A stretch of 64,000 nt of DNA. It comes from Clostridia bacterium (GTDB lineage: Bacteria; Bacillota; Clostridia; Oscillospirales; Acutalibacteraceae). Of the stretch, positions 52,595 through 64,000 are shown piece after piece (position 1 is the first letter of the stretch; the number at the start of each line of letters is the position of its first letter). Under the pieces are notes generated by a model. It did no database searches. It was not told where the DNA came from and saw nothing but the letters and a program-made list of their open reading frames with translations. Location: assembly GCA_017380575.1 (NCBI GenBank), contig JAFODS010000074.1, positions 1-64,000 of the forward strand, in the 5' to 3' direction. Position numbers and translations under genes: made by a program.

Positions 52595-52637
52595 ATGTGC
52601 ATAAACGTTGGCAGAAATGCATATTGGAGGTTTTATT

Positions 52638-53867
52638 ATGAATAAAGAAAACATAAAGAAGGTTGTCCTTGCTTACTCAGGCGGTCTTGATACATCAATC
52701 ATCATCCCTTGGCTCAAGGAAAACTACAACAACTGTGAGGTTATCGCAGTTTCAGGTAACGTTGGTCAGGCAAGTGAACTTGAAGGTCTTGAAGAAAAAG
52801 CTATCAAGACAGGTGCTTCAAAAATATACATCGAAGACCTTACAAAGGAATTCCTTGAGGACTATGTATTCCCGGGTATCCAGGCAGGTGCAAAGTATGA
52901 GGACTATCTCCTTGGCACTGCTTACGCTCGTCCTCCCATTGCAAAGAGAATTGCTGAAATCGCTATCGCAGAAGGTGCAGACGCTATCTGCCACGGTTGT
53001 ACAGGTAAGGGTAATGACCAGGTAAGATTCGAGCTTGCTATCAAGGCTTTCGCACCTGATATGCCGATCATCGCTCCGTGGAGAGAGTGGGACATCAAGT
53101 CACGTGAGGAAGAAATCGAATACGCTGAGGCACACAACGTTCCTCTTAAGATTAACCGCGAAACAAACTATTCAAAGGATAAGAACATCTGGCACCTTTC
53201 ACACGAAGGTCTTGACCTTGAAGATCCTGCAAACGAGCCACTTTACAATAAGGAAGGCTTCCTTGAAATGGGCGTTTCTCCTGAAATGGCTCCTGATGTT
53301 CCGACATACGTTACAATCCACTTTGAAAAGGGTGTTCCCACAGCAATTGACGGTGTAGAAATGGATGCAGTTGCTCTTGTTGAAAAGCTCAACGAGCTCG
53401 GCGGTGCAAACGGTATCGGTCTTCTTGACATCGTTGAAAACAGACTTGTTGGTATGAAATGCCGTGGCGTTTATGAAACACCGGGCGGAGCTATCCTTTA
53501 CAAGGCTCACGAAGTTCTTGAGTCAATCACACTTGATAAGGAAACAGCACACTACAAGACACTTGTTGCTCAGAAGCTTGCTGAGCTTACATATAACGCA
53601 CAGTGGTACACACCGCTTACAGATGCTATTCTTGCATTTGTTAAGGAAACACAGAAGACAGTTACAGGTGACGTTAAGCTCAAGCTCTACAAGGGTAATA
53701 TGATTAACGCAGGTGTAACATCACCGTTCTCACTCTACGATCCTGAAATCGCAACATTTGATGAGGATAACGTTTACAATCAGGCTGATTCAGCAGGATT
53801 TATCAACCTCTACGGTCTTCCCATCAAGGTTTATGCTAAGATGAAGGCTAAGAACAACCTTAAATAA
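52638..53867 (+). CDS. argG: argininosuccinate synthase
   Basis: Joins citrulline and aspartate with ATP to argininosuccinate. The 409-aa protein has the N-type ATP pyrophosphatase loop [10 protein letters not shown] near residue 13, [24 protein letters not shown] and APWREWD. All typical. The ATG at 52638 follows GGAGG at 7 nt. It heads the operon argG-argH-argF-carA-carB; the preceding ornithine-pathway genes (argCJBD) are not in the window. Confidence 0.98.
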
Positions 53868-53894: not shown

Positions 53895-55268
53895 ATGGAA
53901 AAAATGTGGGCAGGAAGATTCCAGAAGGCTCTTGATAAAGAGGCTGACGATTTCAACTCTTCCATTCATTTTGACTGCAAAATGTATAAGCAGGATATCA
54001 CGGGCTCAATGAAGCACGCAGCAATGCTTGCTATGCAGGGCATTATCAGTGATGACGACTGTGATAAGATAACCGCAGGTCTTCAGTCAATTCTTGACGA
54101 CCTTAACAGCGGTGACCTTGCTTTTGATATGGACGCTGAAGATATTCATATGTTTGTTGAGTCCGAACTTACAAAGCGTATCGGCGACGTCGGTAAAAGA
54201 CTTCATACGGCAAGAAGCCGCAATGACCAGGTTGCGGTTGATATCCGTCTTTTCCTTCGTGACGAAACAAACGAGATTATAGCTCTTGTCAAAAAGCTCC
54301 TTGCAGCAATACTTGTGCAGGCAAAGGCTCACAAAACTTCCATTCTTCCCGGATATACTCATCTGCAGAGAGCACAGCCGATTACATTTGCACATCATCT
54401 TCTTGCTTATGCAATGATGTTTACACGTGACATCGGCAGACTTGAAGATGCTTTGAAGAGAATGAATTATTCTCCTCTCGGCTCATGTGCTCTTTCAGGT
54501 ACAACATATAACACAAACCGTGAATTCGTTGCTGAGGCTCTCGGCTTTGACGGCATTACTCTTAACAGTATCGATGGTGTTTCTGACCGTGATTTCTGTG
54601 TTGAGCTTATGGCGGCTTATTCAACAATTATGATGCACCTTTCACGTTTTTCAGAGGAAATCATCCTCTGGTCGAGCTGGGAATTCAAGTTTATCGAGCT
54701 TGATGACAGTTACACAACAGGCTCAAGCATTATGCCACAGAAGAAAAATCCTGATATGGCAGAGCTTGTTCGCGGTAAGACCGGACGTGTTTACGGTGAC
54801 CTTTTCACAATGCTTACGGTGCTCAAGGGTATTCCTCTTGCATACAACAAGGATATGCAGGAAGATAAGGAATGTATCTTTGACAGCATCGACACCGTTA
54901 AGAAATGTCTTAAGGTGTTTGCACCGATGATAGAAACTATGACTGTGCTTACAGATAATATGTATTCTGCAGCACAGAAAGGTTTCATTAATGCAACTGA
55001 CCTTGCAGACTATCTTACAAAGAAGGGTATGCCTTTCAGAAGTGCATACAAAATCGTTGGTCAGATTGTTGCATATTGTATAGATAATAACTTAGTGCTT
55101 GAAACAATGTCACTTGAAGATTATAATAAATACAGTGACCTTTTCTGCGAAGACCTCTACAAGGAAATATCTCTTGAAACCTGCGTTGCTAAAAGAATCT
55201 CTGCAGGTGGTACAGGTATTGACTCTGTTGAGAAGCAGATTGAATATGTAAGCACTTTTATCGACTGA
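53895..55268 (+). CDS. argH: argininosuccinate lyase
   Basis: Splits argininosuccinate to arginine and fumarate. The 457-aa fumarase-superfamily enzyme has [10 protein letters not shown] near residue 100, the HLQRAQP segment with the catalytic His near residue 156, and the signature [12 protein letters not shown] near residue 276. The ATG has GGAG 8 nt upstream and lies 27 nt after argG. Confidence 0.98.
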
Positions 55269-55324: not shown

Positions 55325-56308
55325 ATGGTAAACTTGAAAGGCAGAGATTTCCTTAAACTGCTTGATTTCACAAGCGAAGAAATAGGATATCTTATCGACC
55401 TTGCCGCAGATCTGAAGGCAAAGAAAAAGGCAGGAACAGCTCATAGACTCCACGAGGGCAAGAATATTGCTCTCATCTTTGAGAAGACAAGCACAAGAAC
55501 ACGTTGCAGCTTTGAGGTTGCCGCAAATGACCTTGGTATGCACACAACCTACCTTGCAGAAGGCTCACAGATCGGCAAGAAAGAAAGTATTGCAGACACA
55601 GCAAGAGTTCTTGCAGGAATGTTTGACGGCATCGAATACAGAGGCTACGGCCAGGAGCTTGTTGAAGAGCTTGCAAAGTATTCAAAGGTTCCCGTATGGA
55701 ACGGCCTTACAAACGAATTCCACCCGACTCAGATATTAGCCGATTTCCTTACAATCAAGGAACATTTCGGTTACCTTAAAGGTATAAATTTTGTTTATAT
55801 GGGCGATGCCCGTTACAATATGGGTAATTCACTTATGGTTGGCTGTGCGAAGATGGGTCTTAACTTCACGGCAGCCGCACCTGCAAAGTACTTCCCGGAC
55901 AAGGCACTCGTTGATGAATGCCTTGAAATCGCAAAGGAAACAGGTTCAGTTATCCGCTTCTGCGAAGATCCGATTGAAGCCGTTAAGGATGCAAACGTAA
56001 TTTACACGGATGTATGGGTTTCAATGGGCGAACCGATTGAAGTATGGCAGGAGAGAATAGACGACCTCGCACCGTATCAGGTTAATAAGATTCTTATGGA
56101 TGCGGCAGCAGAAAACGTTGTGTTTATGCACTGCCTTCCTGCTTACCACGACCACAAAACTGCGGTAGGTAAGGAAATGGGCGAAAAGTTCGGACGTGAT
56201 GCAATGGAAGTTACAGACGAAGTTTTCGAAAGTGAAAAATCAATCGTTTTCGAAGAGGCAGAAAACAGAATGCATACGATCAAAGCCGTTATGGCTGCTA
56301 CACTTTGA
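55325..56308 (+). CDS. argF: ornithine carbamoyltransferase
   Basis: Makes citrulline from ornithine and carbamoyl phosphate. At 327 aa it has the carbamoyl-phosphate loop [12 protein letters not shown] near residue 57, [12 protein letters not shown] near residue 135, and the ornithine-binding HCLPAYHD near residue 270. The ATG has GGAGG upstream. Its substrate is supplied by the CarAB encoded directly downstream, so the operon serves arginine synthesis (or, in reverse, arginine breakdown). Confidence 0.97.
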
Positions 56309-56322
56309 TAGGAGGTTTTCGG

Positions 56323-57387
56323 ATGAAAAAAGTTTACATTGTTCTTGAAGACGGTCACGTTTTTGAGGGTGAAAGATTCGGCGCTGAAGGTGAAGTAACA
56401 GGCGAGTTCGTTTTCACCACAGGAATGGGTGCTTATGTTGAAACTCTTACTGACCCGACATATTACGGACAGATAGTAATGCACACATTCCCGCTTATCG
56501 GAAACTACGGCATTATGGAAGAAGATTTTGAGAGTGATAAGTCATACATCGAGGCTTACGTTGTCCGTGAGTGGTGCGATGCTCCCTCAAACTTCAGATG
56601 TGAATATACTCTTGACGAGTACCTCAAAAAGCAGGGTATCGTTGGTGTCTGCGGTGTTGACACACGTGAAATTACACGTGTTATCCGTGACAACGGTGTT
56701 ATGAATGCAAAAATCGTTGATGATCCGTCAACTGTTGACTTTGATGAACTCAAAGCTTATAAAATTACAGATGCAGTTGCAACAGTAAGCACAAAGGAAG
56801 CTTACACGGTTGAGTCAGAAGCTCACAGCAAGAAGGTTGCAGTTGTTGACTTCGGAAAAACTAAGGCTACGGTTGCTGAGCTTACAAAGCGTGGATGCGA
56901 CGTAACGGTTGTTCCTTTCAACACATCTGCTGATGAAATCCTCGCACTTGGTGCGGACGGTATCGTTCTTTCAAACGGACCTGCTGACCCGAAGGATATT
57001 CCGGATGCAGTTGAAGAAATCAAAAAACTTATCGGCAAAGCTCCGATGCTTGGTATCGGCCTCGGTCACCAGCTTGCAGCGCTCGCACTCGGCGGCGAAA
57101 CAGTAAAGCTTCAGTATGGTCACCGCGGTGCTAACCAGCCGGTTAAGAGCACAGAATCAGGCAAGACTTACATCACAAGCCAGAATCACGGCTATGAAGT
57201 AGTTGCAAAGAGCCTTGACTGCGGATTCGAAAGCTTTGTGAATGCTAACGACGGTACCTGCGAAGGTATGAAATATGCGGACAAGCTTCTTATCACAACT
57301 CAGTTCCAGCCCGAAGCTTGTATCAGCCCCTTGAACACACACTACGTTTATGACGAATTTATCACTATGATGGGAGGTAAAAACTGA
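56323..57387 (+). CDS. carA: carbamoyl phosphate synthetase small subunit with degenerate glutaminase site
   Basis: 354 aa with the two CarA domains: the N-terminal half (TTGMGAYVETLTDPTYYGQI) and a class I amidotransferase half. The nucleophile elbow reads LGIGLGHQ, so the catalytic Cys is Gly246 (codon GGC). The triad His is also gone: QFQPEAC has Gln329 where QFHPEA is usual; Glu331 remains. Such a subunit cannot hydrolyse glutamine by the known mechanism. The reading frame is otherwise intact and the family structure motifs (NGPADPKD, YGHRGANQPV, SQNHGYEV) are kept, so it is maintained, perhaps as a structural or regulatory subunit. ATG at 56323, 14 nt after argF. Confidence 0.93.
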   Translation: MKKVYIVLEDGHVFEGERFGAEGEVTGEFVFTTGMGAYVETLTDPTYYGQIVMHTFPLIGNYGIMEEDFESDKSYIEAYVVREWCDAPSNFRCEYTLDEYLKKQGIVGVCGVDTREITRVIRDNGVMNAKIVDDPSTVDFDELKAYKITDAVATVSTKEAYTVESEAHSKKVAVVDFGKTKATVAELTKRGCDVTVVPFNTSADEILALGADGIVLSNGPADPKDIPDAVEEIKKLIGKAPMLGIGLGHQLAALALGGETVKLQYGHRGANQPVKSTESGKTYITSQNHGYEVVAKSLDCGFESFVNANDGTCEGMKYADKLLITTQFQPEACISPLNTHYVYDEFITMMGGKN

Positions 57388-60300
57388 TGCCGCTTAATAA
57401 AGACATAAAAAAAGTACTTGTTATCGGTTCAGGTCCGATTGTTATCGGTCAGGCTGCAGAGTTTGACTATGCAGGTGCACAGGCTTGCCGCGTTCTTAAG
57501 GATGCAGGTCTTGACGTTGTTCTTGTTAACTCAAACCCCGCAACAATTATGACCGACAGTGCACTTGCAAACGAGATTTACCTTGAACCCCTCACAGTTG
57601 AAACAGTAAAGAGAATTATTGAAAAAGAGCGTCCTGACTCAATTCTTGCAGGTCTTGGCGGACAGACAGGTCTTACAATCGCTATGCAGCTTGCTAAGGA
57701 CGGCTACCTTGAAAAGATGGGCGTTAAGCTTCTCGGTACAAATGCTGAAGCTATCGACAAGGCTGAAGACAGACAGATGTTCCGCGACACAATGCTTAAA
57801 ATCGGTCAGCCCTGTATCCCGTCGGACATCGCAACAACAGTTGACCGTGCTGCTGAAATCGCGGAAGAAATTGGCTATCCCGTAATTCTTCGTCCTGCTT
57901 TCACACTCGGCGGTGCAGGCGGCGGTGTTGCTTACAACGAAAAGGAACTCCGAGTTATTACATACAACGGACTTATGCTTTCTCCCATCACTCAGGTGCT
58001 TGTTGAAAAGTACATCGCAGGTTGGAAGGAAATCGAGTTCGAGGTAATGCGTGACAGTGCAGGTAATGCAATTGCAATCTGTTCAATGGAAAACATCGAC
58101 CCCGTTGGTGTTCATACAGGTGACAGTATCGTTGTTGCTCCTGCAATGACACTTTCAGACAAAGAGTATCAGATGCTTCGTTCAGCATCTCTTGATATTA
58201 TCACAGAGCTTGGCATCGAAGGCGGATGTAACTGTCAGTTTGCACTTGACCCTGAAAGCTTTGAATACGCTGTTATCGAGGTTAATCCCCGAGTATCGCG
58301 TTCATCAGCTCTTGCTTCAAAGGCAACAGGTTTCCCGATTGCAAAGGTTACATCAAAGATTGCTCTCGGTTATACACTTGACGAAATCAGAAATGATATT
58401 ACAGGTAAAACTTGTGCTTGCTTCGAGCCGACAGTTGACTACTGTGTTGTTAAATTCCCGAAGTGGCCGTTTGACAAGTTCGTTTCAACAAGCCGTAAGC
58501 TCGGCACACAGATGAAGGCAACGGGCGAGGTTATGGCTATTGCACCTTCATTCGAAATGGCTATTATGAAGGCTGTACGCGGTGCTGAAATCGGTCTTGA
58601 TACGCTTAACTATAATAAATTCCCTGAGAATATGGATGTTATCGAAAAGCTCCATGACCAGGATGATATAAGACTTTTCACAGTTTTCAAGGCTCTTAAA
58701 GAGGGCGTAAGCATTGATGAGATTCACTCAATCACAATGATTGATGAATGGTTCCTTGCAAAGCTCAAGAATCTTGCTGACTATGAAAAAATGCTTGAAA
58801 GCGGTGACCTTGATGAAGATTATTACATCAAGGGTAAGAAATTAGGCTACAAGGATTCAACAATCCTCAGGTATGCAGGTAAGCTTCCCGAAAAGAAGCT
58901 CGACGCTGTTTACAAGATGGTTGATACCTGCGGTGCTGAATTCAAGGCTGAAACACCGTACTTCTATTCAACATACGACACAGAATGTGAATCAAGAGAA
59001 ATCAAACGCGGTGAGAAGGAAACAATCATCGTTCTCGGCTCAGGTCCGATCCGTATCGGTCAGGGTATCGAGTTTGACTACTCATCAGTTCACTGTGTAT
59101 GGACTCTTAAAGAACTCGGTTACGAAGTCGTTATCATCAACAACAACCCCGAAACAGTTTCAACAGACTTTGATACAGCTGACAGACTTTACTTTGAACC
59201 CCTCAACGACGAAGACGTTATGAACGTTATCAAGGTTGAAAATCCCGTTGGTGTCGTTGTTGCTTTCGGTGGACAGACAGCTATCAAGCTCACAAAGTTC
59301 CTTGACGAAAGCGGAATCAAAATCCTCGGCACATCAGCTGAAGGTATCGATATCGCAGAAGACAGAGAGCGTTTTGATGCTCTTCTTGAGTCATTCAATA
59401 TCAAGAGACCGCAGGGTCTTACAGTTATGAATGTTGACGAGGCTCTCAAGGCTGCTGACGAGCTCGGCTATCCCGTTCTTCTTCGTCCGTCATACGTTAT
59501 CGGCGGTCAGAATATGACAATCGCTTATAACGAAACAGACGTACGTATCTATATGGACATCATCCTCGCTCAGAAGATTGAAAACCCTGTTCTTGTTGAC
59601 CAGTATCTTATGGGTGACGAGCTTGAGGTTGACGTTATTTCTGACGGTAAGGATGTTCTTATCCCGGGTGTTATGGAGCATATTGAGCGTGCAGGTGTTC
59701 ACTCAGGTGACTCAATCGCTGTTTATCCTCCGTATAACATTCCCGACAAGATGCTTGACAAGGTAATTGAATGTTCAACAAACCTTGCTCTTGCACTCGG
59801 CACAAAGGGTCTTGTTAATATCCAGTATCTTATCTTCCGTAACGAGCTTTACGTTATCGAAGTTAACCCGCGTGCTTCACGTACAATTCCTTACATCAGT
59901 AAGGTTACAGGCGTACCGATGGTTGAGCTTGCAACAAAGGTTATGACGGGCACTCCGCTTAAGGAGCTTGGATTCGGCACAGGACTTTACAAGATTCCGC
60001 CGTACTTCGCAATCAAGGTTCCCGTATTCTCATTCGAAAAGCTCAGTGATATCAACTCAGAGCTTGGTCCTGAAATGAAGTCAACAGGTGAAGTTCTCGG
60101 TATCGGCAGAACTCTCAACGAGGCACTCTTCAAGGGTCTTGTTTCTGCAGGATTCAAGGTAGGTCTTGAAAGCACCTATCACGATAAGAAGTATAACGCA
60201 GGTGTTCTTATCAGCGTACACGATAAGGACAAGCCCGAAATCGTTGGTATTGCAAAGAAGTTTGCAGATCTCGGTCTTAAAATCTACTCAACTGCAAAGA

Positions 60301-61439
60301 CAGGCGTAGGCCTCCGTGCAGCAGGTATTGAGGTCGAAACAATCGGTGACTTCAACGATTGCAGTGCAGTCCTCGATGTTCTTGAAACAGGTAAGATTGA
60401 CTATATCGTTTACACAGGTTCAACAAAGCAGGCAACAATCCAGAACTTTATCAAGATTCACAGACGTGCTGTTCAGCTTTCAATATGTACTCTTACATCT
60501 CTTGATACAGCAAACGCTCTCTGCGATACTCTTGCAAGCCGTTTCACTCAGAGAAACACAGAGCTTGTTGATATCAACAACCTCCGCGAAGAGAAGATGC
60601 AGCTTAAGTTCACAAAGATGCAGGCAACAGGTAACGACGATATTTATTTCAATAACTTCTGCAAGGTTATTCCGTCACCTGAATCACTCACAGTTAACTT
60701 CACGGACCGTCACTTCGGTATCGGTGCAGACGGTGTTGTTCTTCTTGAAAGCTCAGATATCGCAGATGCAAAGATGGTTGTTTATAACAACGACGGCACA
60801 CAGACACGTATGGCTGTAAACAGCATCCGTTGTGCTGCTAAGTATCTCTACGATAACGGCATTGTTCCGAAGAAGAATATGACAATCGAAACAAGCAGCG
60901 GTGTTATGAAGGTTAAGCTTTATACATTCAACGGTGAGGTTCGCTCAGCAACAGTTGATATCGGCAAGCCTGATTTCAACCCTGCAAGCATCCCGATGAA
61001 CATTGATGCAGAAAATGCAATCGGCTACGAAGCAGAAATCGGCGGCGAGAAGTATACACTCAACTGTGTATCAGTCGGTAACCCGCACTGTATCGTATTC
61101 AGAGATGATATCGATTCCGTAAACATCAATGAATTCGGTGATATGATCAGAAACTCTGAACTTCTTCCTGAATACATCAATACAGGTGTAGCAAGACTCA
61201 TTGATAAGAACACAATCAAGCTCAGATGTTACGAGCGTGCAGTTAACGGTGAAAGCCTCAGCTGCGGTGCTTCAGCAGCAGCTTGTGTTGTTGTTGCAAC
61301 AGAGCTTGGAATGTGCAAGAAGGGCGAAGACATAACAGTCAAAATGCCGGGCGGTGACCTCGTAATCACTTACACAGACGAAACAATCCTCGTTAACGGT
61401 GACACACAGAAGGTTTACGAAGGCGTTGTAGAATATTAA
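57387..61439 (+). CDS. carB: carbamoyl phosphate synthetase large subunit fused to a DapF-like domain
   Basis: 1350 aa. Residues 1-1070 are a full CarB: two ATP-grasp synthetase halves (starts GSGPIVIGQAAEFDYAG and GSGPIRIGQGIEFDYSS; LRPAFTLGGAGGG and LRPSYVIGGQNM) and the C-terminal MGS-like allosteric domain. Residues 1071-1350 (from 60597) are a complete diaminopimelate epimerase fold: KMQATGNDD, DRHFGIGADGV, NPHCIVFRDD, MPGGDLVI. In the first active-site segment MAVNSIRC replaces the usual CGNG, so catalytic Cys is Ala1143; the second is kept (Cys1293 in ESLSCGAS). The frame is continuous, with no stop at the junction. Start overlaps carA by one base. Confidence 0.95.
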   Translation: MPLNKDIKKVLVIGSGPIVIGQAAEFDYAGAQACRVLKDAGLDVVLVNSNPATIMTDSALANEIYLEPLTVETVKRIIEKERPDSILAGLGGQTGLTIAMQLAKDGYLEKMGVKLLGTNAEAIDKAEDRQMFRDTMLKIGQPCIPSDIATTVDRAAEIAEEIGYPVILRPAFTLGGAGGGVAYNEKELRVITYNGLMLSPITQVLVEKYIAGWKEIEFEVMRDSAGNAIAICSMENIDPVGVHTGDSIVVAPAMTLSDKEYQMLRSASLDIITELGIEGGCNCQFALDPESFEYAVIEVNPRVSRSSALASKATGFPIAKVTSKIALGYTLDEIRNDITGKTCACFEPTVDYCVVKFPKWPFDKFVSTSRKLGTQMKATGEVMAIAPSFEMAIMKAVRGAEIGLDTLNYNKFPENMDVIEKLHDQDDIRLFTVFKALKEGVSIDEIHSITMIDEWFLAKLKNLADYEKMLESGDLDEDYYIKGKKLGYKDSTILRYAGKLPEKKLDAVYKMVDTCGAEFKAETPYFYSTYDTECESREIKRGEKETIIVLGSGPIRIGQGIEFDYSSVHCVWTLKELGYEVVIINNNPETVSTDFDTADRLYFEPLNDEDVMNVIKVENPVGVVVAFGGQTAIKLTKFLDESGIKILGTSAEGIDIAEDRERFDALLESFNIKRPQGLTVMNVDEALKAADELGYPVLLRPSYVIGGQNMTIAYNETDVRIYMDIILAQKIENPVLVDQYLMGDELEVDVISDGKDVLIPGVMEHIERAGVHSGDSIAVYPPYNIPDKMLDKVIECSTNLALALGTKGLVNIQYLIFRNELYVIEVNPRASRTIPYISKVTGVPMVELATKVMTGTPLKELGFGTGLYKIPPYFAIKVPVFSFEKLSDINSELGPEMKSTGEVLGIGRTLNEALFKGLVSAGFKVGLESTYHDKKYNAGVLISVHDKDKPEIVGIAKKFADLGLKIYSTAKTGVGLRAAGIEVETIGDFNDCSAVLDVLETGKIDYIVYTGSTKQATIQNFIKIHRRAVQLSICTLTSLDTANALCDTLASRFTQRNTELVDINNLREEKMQLKFTKMQATGNDDIYFNNFCKVIPSPESLTVNFTDRHFGIGADGVVLLESSDIADAKMVVYNNDGTQTRMAVNSIRCAAKYLYDNGIVPKKNMTIETSSGVMKVKLYTFNGEVRSATVDIGKPDFNPASIPMNIDAENAIGYEAEIGGEKYTLNCVSVGNPHCIVFRDDIDSVNINEFGDMIRNSELLPEYINTGVARLIDKNTIKLRCYERAVNGESLSCGASAAACVVVATELGMCKKGEDITVKMPGGDLVITYTDETILVNGDTQKVYEGVVEY

Positions 61440-61480: not shown

Positions 61481-62335
61481 TTATACCGTACCTGTTACTG
61501 TGAGGGTTGCTGTGCCGGGATTGATTACAAAAGCACCTGTTGTCGGATCCTGAGTGTAAGTTGCTGCAGGTACTGTAATCTGACCTGGTAATGTTGCAAA
61601 TTCACCTGTTGTTTCATCATAGGTGTAGTTTGTGCCTTCTGTCCACGCTGTGCCGTTGAAGCTGACTGAGGTGATGTCAAGAATCGGATCGAATGTGTCA
61701 GAAATTACAAGATTATCCGTTGCGATGGCAGGTTCATTGCCGGTGTTCTGAACAACGAAGGTATAGGTGATTTCTCCGTTATCAATAACTGTTGTCGGAC
61801 AAAGTGATTTTGAAATTGAAAGCTGTGGTCCCTGTGCGGTAGGAATTGTTGCCTGAGCAACAATGTCCGAACTGAGTCCGCCGCCCGTAACAGTTGCTGT
61901 GTTTGTTATTGTATCTCCTGCATCAAACGGAGCAAATTCGTTTACTCTTGCAGAGTAGATAAGGGTCGCGTTGCTGTTTGCAGGAATTGTCAGGCCGCTT
62001 ACAGTAAGCGGAGGTCCTGCGGTTGCTGTGGGTGCCGGCTGTAAAATACCGTTGATGAAAAGTCTTGCCGAACCGTCAATGTAGGTCAGCGGGACAAGTG
62101 TTGTGTCACCGAAGGTGTATGCACCAAGGTCATCTGTAACCGTAAGGTCTGTGAAGGGCAGAGTGCCCGAATTTGTAATATTCACAACGTAGCTGACTGT
62201 TTCACCGGGAACATAGTTGTCGGAAAGTGCAGTCTTTGTTGCTGAAACAACTTCAATGATTTCGCCTGTAACGATATTAGAGTTAATGGTACTGTCATTG
62301 AAGGTAAGTGTTGCACGGTTAAAAAAAGTTGCCAT
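61481..62335 (-). CDS. DUF11-type conserved repeat protein without signal peptide
   Basis: 284 aa, Thr/Asn/Val-rich and beta-structured. Residues 30-170 and 175-284 are two DUF11-like units (VPGETVSYVVNITNSGTLPF and NGEITYTFVVQNTGNEPA). The N-terminus MATFFNRATLTFNDSTINSN is a known opening of a Clostridia family that lacks a signal peptide, so its export route is unclear; a spore or surface role is only a guess. The ATG at 62335 has AAGGAGG at 7 nt. A TGAGGT/ACCTCA inverted repeat (62358-62373) lies in the leader. Confidence 0.78.
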   Translation of the reverse strand: MATFFNRATLTFNDSTINSNIVTGEIIEVVSATKTALSDNYVPGETVSYVVNITNSGTLPFTDLTVTDDLGAYTFGDTTLVPLTYIDGSARLFINGILQPAPTATAGPPLTVSGLTIPANSNATLIYSARVNEFAPFDAGDTITNTATVTGGGLSSDIVAQATIPTAQGPQLSISKSLCPTTVIDNGEITYTFVVQNTGNEPAIATDNLVISDTFDPILDITSVSFNGTAWTEGTNYTYDETTGEFATLPGQITVPAATYTQDPTTGAFVINPGTATLTVTGTV

Positions 62336-62803: not shown

Positions 62804-64000
62804 ATGAAAATGAAAAAAGCAATAGCTGTTGTTCTGACCCTTACGATGATGCTGAGCTTCAGCTTCTTGTCGCTGTCACAGCCGACATTGCAGAAGATGT
62901 TCGAAGGGATATTCTCTGTTAATGCAGCAGCACTTGAAGATGCTATTATGAAGTATGCTCCCGAAGGTACGGAAGACTTGGCACTCAGAGCAAGTGTAAC
63001 CGCATCCAGTAGTTATACTTCAGCGAACGGCCAATGGCACCTTGACCGAATCAATGACGGCAGTTTTACTTTCGACGGTGGACCTGCAGGCTTCAGTACT
63101 GCAACTGATGAGGTAGCATACAACAACAATATGACGCAGGAGGAAAAAGATGCTGCTGTTGCTACGTCAAAGGTAAAGGAGTTTATAATGACTTTCGACC
63201 TTGAGGGTTTTTATAATGTCAGCCGAGTAGCTTTGTTCACATACGGAGCTTTTCCGGATACTTTTGAAATTCAGGTATCGGAAGACGGTGAAACTTATAA
63301 AACGGTTGCTTCTGAAAGCGGACGTGAAGGTTATTCGAAGGAAGCGCTTTCTCTTGATTTTGCTACAATAAAAGCACGTTTCGTTCGTCTTTATGTTACT
63401 AAGAGAGGTCGACTTGACGGCAACAATATTCACTTTGTTCAGTTTAACGAAATTGGTATTTACGGTACTCCTGCGGCTCCGACAAATACCGGTCTTGAAA
63501 TAAATTCGTATGCACCCGAGCATTGCATCAACCTTGCACCCGAAAGCACGGTTACCGCTCCCGGCAGCTATGAGTCAGGTGACGGAAAGTGGGGCGTGGC
63601 AAATATTAACAATGAAGACACTTCACGAAACAGCGGTTTCACTATTTTTAAAAATAATGCCTCTAATATAGATTTCAGTCTCGGTAATATCGCTGAGGTT
63701 AAAAGAGTGGTTCTTTTCCCGAACGGTATTGCACCTAAAACACTTGAGATCCGTACATCCTTTGACGGTGTGAATTATAAAACAGTCAAGACTGTATCAA
63801 TTCCTGAAAGTGTTTCTCAAAATAACGGAAATACAGACAGTGAAAATAAAGTACTCAAGTATTTCACCTTTGATTTGCCTGAAAAAACATTTGCTTCACA
63901 CGTACAGGTATTAATCACTGAAAGCTTTGGTCTGGATGATATAACTGCTCAGTGTGCAGAAATTGCAATTTACGGTGTCAGAAATATTTTTGATGCACAA
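62804..64000 (+). CDS. secreted protein with discoidin (F5/8 type C)-like domains, N-terminal part
   Basis: Open from the ATG at 62804 to the window end (399 codons, no stop). The ATG follows AGGAGG at 8 nt. A signal peptide of about 35-45 residues (MKMKKAIAVVLTLTMMLSFS) is followed by two domains of the galactose-binding/discoidin type: about residues 60-225 (ending RLYVTKRG...FNEIGIYG) and about 240-395 (starting INLAPESTVTAPGSYESG, ending ECAEIAIYG in pattern). Such domains bind glycans; the catalytic or anchoring part must lie beyond the window. Likely a large cell-surface or secreted carbohydrate-binding enzyme. Confidence 0.83.
   Translation, partial: MKMKKAIAVVLTLTMMLSFSFLSLSQPTLQKMFEGIFSVNAAALEDAIMKYAPEGTEDLALRASVTASSSYTSANGQWHLDRINDGSFTFDGGPAGFSTATDEVAYNNNMTQEEKDAAVATSKVKEFIMTFDLEGFYNVSRVALFTYGAFPDTFEIQVSEDGETYKTVASESGREGYSKEALSLDFATIKARFVRLYVTKRGRLDGNNIHFVQFNEIGIYGTPAAPTNTGLEINSYAPEHCINLAPESTVTAPGSYESGDGKWGVANINNEDTSRNSGFTIFKNNASNIDFSLGNIAEVKRVVLFPNGIAPKTLEIRTSFDGVNYKTVKTVSIPESVSQNNGNTDSENKVLKYFTFDLPEKTFASHVQVLITESFGLDDITAQCAEIAIYGVRNIFDAQ

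Follow-up and report, generated by a model that had tools for sequence, protein, structure and literature searches.

Carbamoyl-phosphate synthase (CPSase) is a classic allosteric enzyme. We analyzed a window of 64,000 nucleotides from a Clostridia bacterium (contig JAFODS010000074.1, positions 1 to 64,000) in which its carB gene continues into a sequence of the diaminopimelate epimerase (DapF) family. With bacterial CarB (TIGR01369), the locus shares all CarB domains, the MGS domain, a carA partner, and the ornithine-site Thr1042, but it differs in a 280-residue DapF-fold extension, in the replacement of K993, and in the replacement of the glutaminase residues of CarA. With DapF (TIGR00652; PDB 2otn, 1bwz, and 5h2g), it shares the whole two-lobed sequence, the second catalytic Cys, and most ligand residues; unlike DapF, its first Cys is Ala, it is fused to CarB, and it lies away from dapL and lysA. 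The vertebrate ammonia-type CPS I (PDB 5dot and 5dou), as described in passages of PMC4655335, likewise keeps a GATase with its Cys replaced and has an allosteric C terminus, whereas the window has a separate CarA and an additional DapF-fold domain, and some relatives of the same genus keep the GATase Cys. A further DapF-family model, NF038284, is flagged as a bifunctional DapF/glutamate racemase; it spans 254 positions with no CarB part, and the window protein scored 102 bits against its cut-off of 350.

One reading frame spans CarB and a DapF-fold domain

The fused gene is a single uninterrupted frame of 1350 codons at 57387-61439 on the + strand. Its CarB part (residues 1-1070; 57387..60596, + strand), recognized by TIGR01369 and the Pfam CPSase domains, comprises both ATP-grasp halves and the MGS domain, and the TIGR01369 match is full length, covering residues 4-1047 with 1398 bits against an NCBIfam cut-off of 1027. 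The MGS-like allosteric domain (residues 951-1037; 60237..60497, + strand) was placed with Pfam MGS and an alignment to E. coli CarB. Beyond it, junction comparison delimited a linker, NTELVDINNLREEK (60555..60596, + strand), which leads into the DapF-fold domain (residues 1071-1350; 60597..61436, + strand), a predicted pseudo-epimerase recognized by TIGR00652 and by PDB DapF matches. The TIGR00652 match covers residues 1074-1348 with 222 bits against a cut-off of 115 (227 bits when the domain was a separate query), and Pfam reported two DAP_epimerase stretches on the fusion protein. In the PDB search, the solved structures matching this second part were named DapF, apart from one O-ureido-serine racemase, and the best was 2otn. 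No curated model covering the CarB and DapF pair was present among the best 25 of 46 matching NCBIfam families. With both halves above their curated cut-offs in one frame, the in-frame fusion proposed in the initial annotation is borne out. Its description of a DapF match from first to last motif was overstated, however, since Ala replaces the first Cys and Val the Gly after it, and CGASA stands in place of CGTGA.

The fusion recurs across Clostridia

With the window's DapF domain as the query, DapF matches in frames of at least 1300 codons were found in 45 of the 98 relatives, the window's own genome being one of them. The class-level sample gave such frames in at least 35 of 291 genomes (own included), and a phylum-wide one in at least 11 of 249, not counting the window's genome. 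CarB and DapF shared one frame in all 60 loci inspected from the relative and class searches and in 11/11 phylum-sample loci. From the relatives we used 40 of the 44 other fused frames, all but G065, G090, G086, and G051, and set aside shorter cases at contig edges as well; among 34 fused frames of the class set, one (G077) was already included, and we added 20 of the remaining 33. The 61 fusions analyzed are these 60 loci and the window; they were picked by likeness to the window's own DapF domain, and several of the genomes behind them are incomplete. In a set of named records that overlaps these genomes (e.g., L193 and G009:C21), 75 of 80 were fused. Most of the named records have titles such as Clostridia, Oscillospiraceae, or Ruminococcus, and many bear gut sample names; fused records not marked MAG include Ruminococcus sp. 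FC2018, Mobilibacterium timonense, and Treponema sp. C6A8.

The initial annotation had allowed for a sequencing error hiding a stop near 60597. This is excluded by the occurrence of the same frame in 45/98 relatives and in G559 and G583, two fused loci of the phylum sample that come from single-contig genomes and have a linker similar to the window's. More generally, we give negligible probability to an assembly or sequencing artefact that joined two genes; we found no point in its favor, the DapF domain is under in-frame purifying selection, and the reading is refuted because the fusion recurs in other genomes. Nor is the fusion the exceptional architecture it was first taken for, being widespread in Clostridia: a look at the taxonomic range of CarB proteins of about 1350 residues found such frames in the relative, class, and phylum samples alike, and some relatives keep an intact, probably working epimerase. 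We found no description of a CarB-DapF fusion in the open-access papers searched; automatic domain databases may list the architecture.

The plasmid collection held no near match to the window, and in a protein search none of the 60 best of 62 CarB matches reached beyond residue 1080, so that no fusion was seen among them; the best 10 of 39 DapF matches there were annotated dapF or nameless. The Treponema-named records L265, L268, and L246 also carry the fusion, one of them (sp. C6A8) in a record not marked MAG, which suggests transfer to spirochaetes.

Catalytic residues of the fused DapF domain

The first catalytic Cys site (Cys73/Cys83) is Ala in the window (60813..60815, + strand), as judged by motif alignment and comparison with PDB DapF structures, and MAVNSIRC stands in place of MCGNGIRC. 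In the second motif, SCGASA, the catalytic Cys and the Gly after it are kept and the Thr223 position is Ala, giving CGA for CGT (61263..61271, + strand; motif alignment). The window thus has one of the two cysteines expected of an active DapF. Both cysteines were kept in 20 of the 61 fusions (hereafter intact) and in 17/17 separate DapFs aligned, whereas one or both were lost in 41/61 fusions (hereafter altered) versus 0/17 separate DapFs. The first Cys of the altered fusions is replaced by Ala in 29, Gly in 6, Ser in 3, Phe in 1, and Thr in 1; in the one other case it is present and the second Cys is lost. For the C. glutamicum enzyme (CgDapF), passages of PMC5296763 report that C83A or C221A almost completely abolishes activity.

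We infer that the window domain no longer epimerizes. That the protein still works as both CPSase and diaminopimelate epimerase is highly improbable: a full-length fold above the DapF cut-off and the existence of intact relatives speak for this, but the first catalytic Cys is Ala, two more ligand-site positions have changed, the same Cys change nearly abolished CgDapF activity in the work cited, and the genome has a separate two-Cys dapF next to dapL and lysA. It is likewise improbable, if slightly less so, that the domain has acquired a new activity with one cysteine, for instance as a dehydratase or isomerase with the DapF/proline-racemase fold. Loss of one Cys gave rise to dehydratases in the proline racemase family, and the altered domains retain the second Cys in 38/41, E212 in 40/41, and R213 in 38/41 cases. 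Against such an activity, the first Cys was mostly replaced by inert Ala or Gly (35/41) rather than by one new catalytic residue, and the window's upstream neighbors are arginine genes.

Origin of the fused gene and its junction

A CarB tree with 81 rows, made by a quick search with SH-aLRT support only, placed 60/61 fusions in one clade (support 99). Its sister was L116 (support 100), in which carA, carB, and dapF are adjacent, separate genes; separate carA-carB-dapF-dapL operons occur in L158, L159, and L163. We regard it as strongly indicated that carB and dapF, which related genomes have as operon neighbors, merged into a single gene in Clostridia. The remaining fusion, L081, falls outside the main clade, which points to two fusion events or to one with later splits. 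A DapF tree had the same outline with weak support and placed L089 among separate copies. The intact or altered state required ten changes on the CarB tree, where a clade of 29 fusions including the window (support 100) had only Cys-altered members, 26 of them with argF upstream.

Because the CarB of L116 ends in SLVDINTL before its stop, the linker of the fusions, TELVDIN, probably represents the former CarB C terminus. We considered and rejected an internal start from which the window's DapF part would be translated separately, as the internal ATG at 60597 has no Shine-Dalgarno word; in the congener L045, a Shine-Dalgarno-like word lies 4 bases ahead of the internal ATG. When two overlapping sets were pooled and identical junctions dropped (133 fusions), a Shine-Dalgarno-like word preceded a start codon at the old dapF start in 16/50 intact versus 5/83 altered junctions. 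Free DapF may therefore also be produced by some of the intact fusions. The intact fusions L062, L064, L074, and L083 read ATGAGGAG followed by an ATG in frame where dapF used to begin; this internal-ribosome-site-like junction might allow both fused and free DapF to be made. In L106 and L107, a separate dapF follows carA directly with no carB between, possibly through fission or rearrangement of a fused gene; the genome of L106 has a carA-carB pair elsewhere (L153).

Genomic context of intact and altered fusions

Among the 20 genomes with intact fusions, 18 have no other DapF and 7 of those 18 also have no diaminopimelate dehydrogenase, Ddh (five of these seven are at least 93% complete), in counts that, like those for dapL and argF below, treat related genomes as independent. 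Ddh or another DapF is thus present in 13/20. The genomes with altered fusions have another DapF in 23/41, Ddh only in 16/41, and neither in 2/41 (G087 and G064). Ddh was searched for with one query protein at E 1e-20, and five genomes with weak matches only (≤111 bits) were scored as lacking it. Between intact and altered fusions in genomes at least 90% complete, the presence of an alternative route (other DapF or Ddh) differed only weakly (p 0.09); redundancy by itself does not predict Cys loss. A second CarB as the driver was tried and dropped, there being no association (6/20 intact, 12/41 altered).

Among loci with room, dapL lies within 4 kb downstream in 11/16 intact versus 0/35 altered fusions, as scored on 54 of the 61 loci (six split-CarB-match loci and the window were left out, and three loci had no room). 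The overlapping named set gave 12/27 versus 0/34 for dapL near the fusion. The argF gene is upstream of 26/41 altered versus 0/20 intact fusions (16/31 versus 0/21 in the named set). With phylogenetic pairing on the CarB tree, 3-4 of 9 pairs for a second DapF and 2-5 of 6 pairs for DapL absence went in the expected direction and none in the opposite one; with so few differing pairs, neither association is significant. Because 18/20 genomes have no other DapF and dapL is often next, the intact fusions look like truly bifunctional CPSase and DapF enzymes.

The window genome has a separate dapF with both Cys (its start cut by a contig end) beside dapL and lysA, a ddh, and a second, unfused CarB on C20. 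Its fusion is not placed with dapL and lysA, the usual though not strictly defining setting of DapF, and has arginine genes upstream and unrelated genes downstream. Three ddh matches (L120 8200-9183, L122 on C45, and G000:C61) accompany the dapF-dapL pair in this genome, and carB-purC-ddh neighborhoods on C20 and C45 are similar, perhaps through duplication or mixed strains in the assembly. In G487, a Cys-intact fusion and a separate Cys-intact dapF with dapL share one contig (L283 5379-15631, reverse-strand coordinates).

The arginine cluster, CarA, and the MGS domain

The fusion is the last gene of an argG-argH-argF-carA-carB/dapF cluster, all on the + strand: argininosuccinate synthase, argG (52608..53867; TIGR00032, 459 bits); argininosuccinate lyase, argH (53895..55268; TIGR00838, 637 bits); ornithine carbamoyltransferase, argF (55325..56308; TIGR00658, 421 bits); and carA (56305..57387; TIGR01368, 399 bits, and alignment to E. 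coli CarA). Downstream lie a DUF11 repeat protein (61481-62335, - strand) and an F5/8 type C (discoidin-like) protein (62804-64000, + strand), which are unrelated to arginine.

An altered CarA beside the fusion had been noted from the start, and both the glutaminase Cys and His are indeed missing: the GATase Cys is Gly (GIGLGHQ, codon 57058-57060) and the His is Gln (QFQPEA, codon 57307-57309), leaving Gly-Gln-Glu where a glutaminase-competent CarA has Cys-His-Glu. The CarA partners of the fusions have the complete triad in 40/57 and depart from it in 17/57, with the Cys lost in 12/57. Loss of the triad in the window is recent, because the states differ among species of the genus (GQE, GHE, CQE, CHE, and SHA). 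The glutaminase half of CarA is still constrained (dN/dS of 0.08-0.16 for the five closest), and the window genome has another CarA with the glutaminase Cys on C31, cut by a contig end. According to passages of PMC4655335, human CPS1 lost the same GATase Cys and takes free ammonia. With Gly at the position whose replacement marks an ammonia-type CPSase, the window enzyme and its altered CarA would, by analogy, use free ammonia and not glutamine.

The MGS domain has changed as well. K993 of E. coli CarB is crucial for UMP binding, as stated in passages of PMC6245113; in an alignment to that protein the window has Asp at this position and keeps T977 and the ornithine Thr1042. K993 was kept in 20/20 intact fusions, 13/15 altered fusions without argF, and 6/25 altered argF-linked fusions, and Thr1042 in 60/60 fusions and the window. 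The pattern in the argF-linked fusions fits an arginine-serving enzyme freed from pyrimidine control.

Constraint and the ligand pocket of the altered domain

In comparisons of the window with five congeners, dN/dS was 0.029-0.054 for the DapF domain and 0.014-0.038 for CarB residues 1-929; two more distant congeners gave 0.13 and 0.11. Purifying selection on the altered domain is strong, near CarB's level, and these low ratios denote constraint, not proof of regulation.

The ligand side chains of CgDapF, as given in passages of PMC5296763, are N15, N74, N85, N159, N194, E212, R213, and T223. Judged by that list, all eight are present in 20/20 intact and 25/41 altered fusions, at least one being changed in 16/41 altered domains. 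The window keeps 7/8, with T223 as Ala, short of the full set of an active DapF, and over twelve pocket sites it differs only at C83, G84, and T223. Retention of N74, N159, N194, E212, and R213, which hold the L-amino acid end, leaves the recognition half of the diaminopimelate pocket in place. T223 and G84 are lost in the window genus too, which may mean that its domain binds no ligand at all.

These residues bear on the rival that the DapF domain is purely structural, helping CarB to fold or dimerize and binding nothing. The losses of T223, G84, and the Cys in the window genus and the strong constraint in a domain without catalysis agree with it, as do the dimeric DapF structures described in passages of PMC5296763. 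We consider it rather unlikely, however, given that folding alone need not require the eight ligand side chains that survive in 25 of 41 Cys-altered domains or the recognition-side residues of the window.

A proposed path from enzyme to module

Our preferred reading, which we hold to be probable though well short of certain, is that an arginine-dedicated CPSase arose from a bifunctional CarB-DapF, whose DapF-fold part turned into a noncatalytic, probably ligand-binding or structural module. Sequence comparison shows or strongly indicates that neighboring carB and dapF genes fused and that, in the window lineage, the fused gene lies in an arginine cluster, with the first catalytic Cys of its DapF domain gone, the UMP-binding Lys of its MGS domain lost, the ornithine Thr retained, the DapF fold still strongly constrained, and a separate intact dapF elsewhere in the genome. 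The recognition half of the diaminopimelate pocket, which is retained, may then hold an amino acid, or the DapF-fold domain may stabilize the oligomer; in this way the domain could set synthase activity through the neighboring MGS domain; the altered CarA would bring free ammonia as substrate instead of glutamine. A more specific form, in which the epimerase became a permanent amino-acid sensor through which diaminopimelate, or some other amino acid, is coupled to arginine synthesis, is possible but tentative.

The initial annotation suggested regulation or substrate channelling. Regulation is plausible, since the DapF part sits behind the allosteric MGS domain and stays conserved despite the loss of one catalytic Cys. 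Channelling is rejected: to our knowledge, CPSase and DapF have no metabolite in common, and the window domain should not epimerize.

Living relatives show apparent stages in the passage from enzyme to noncatalytic module, as neighbor genes, intact fusion, and altered conserved domain. This suggests that CPSase is under an uncharacterized control in Clostridia common in the gut, and that arginine, lysine, and cell-wall supply are connected. An annotation as diaminopimelate epimerase is probably wrong for fusions of the window type, whereas for intact ones it is probably right.
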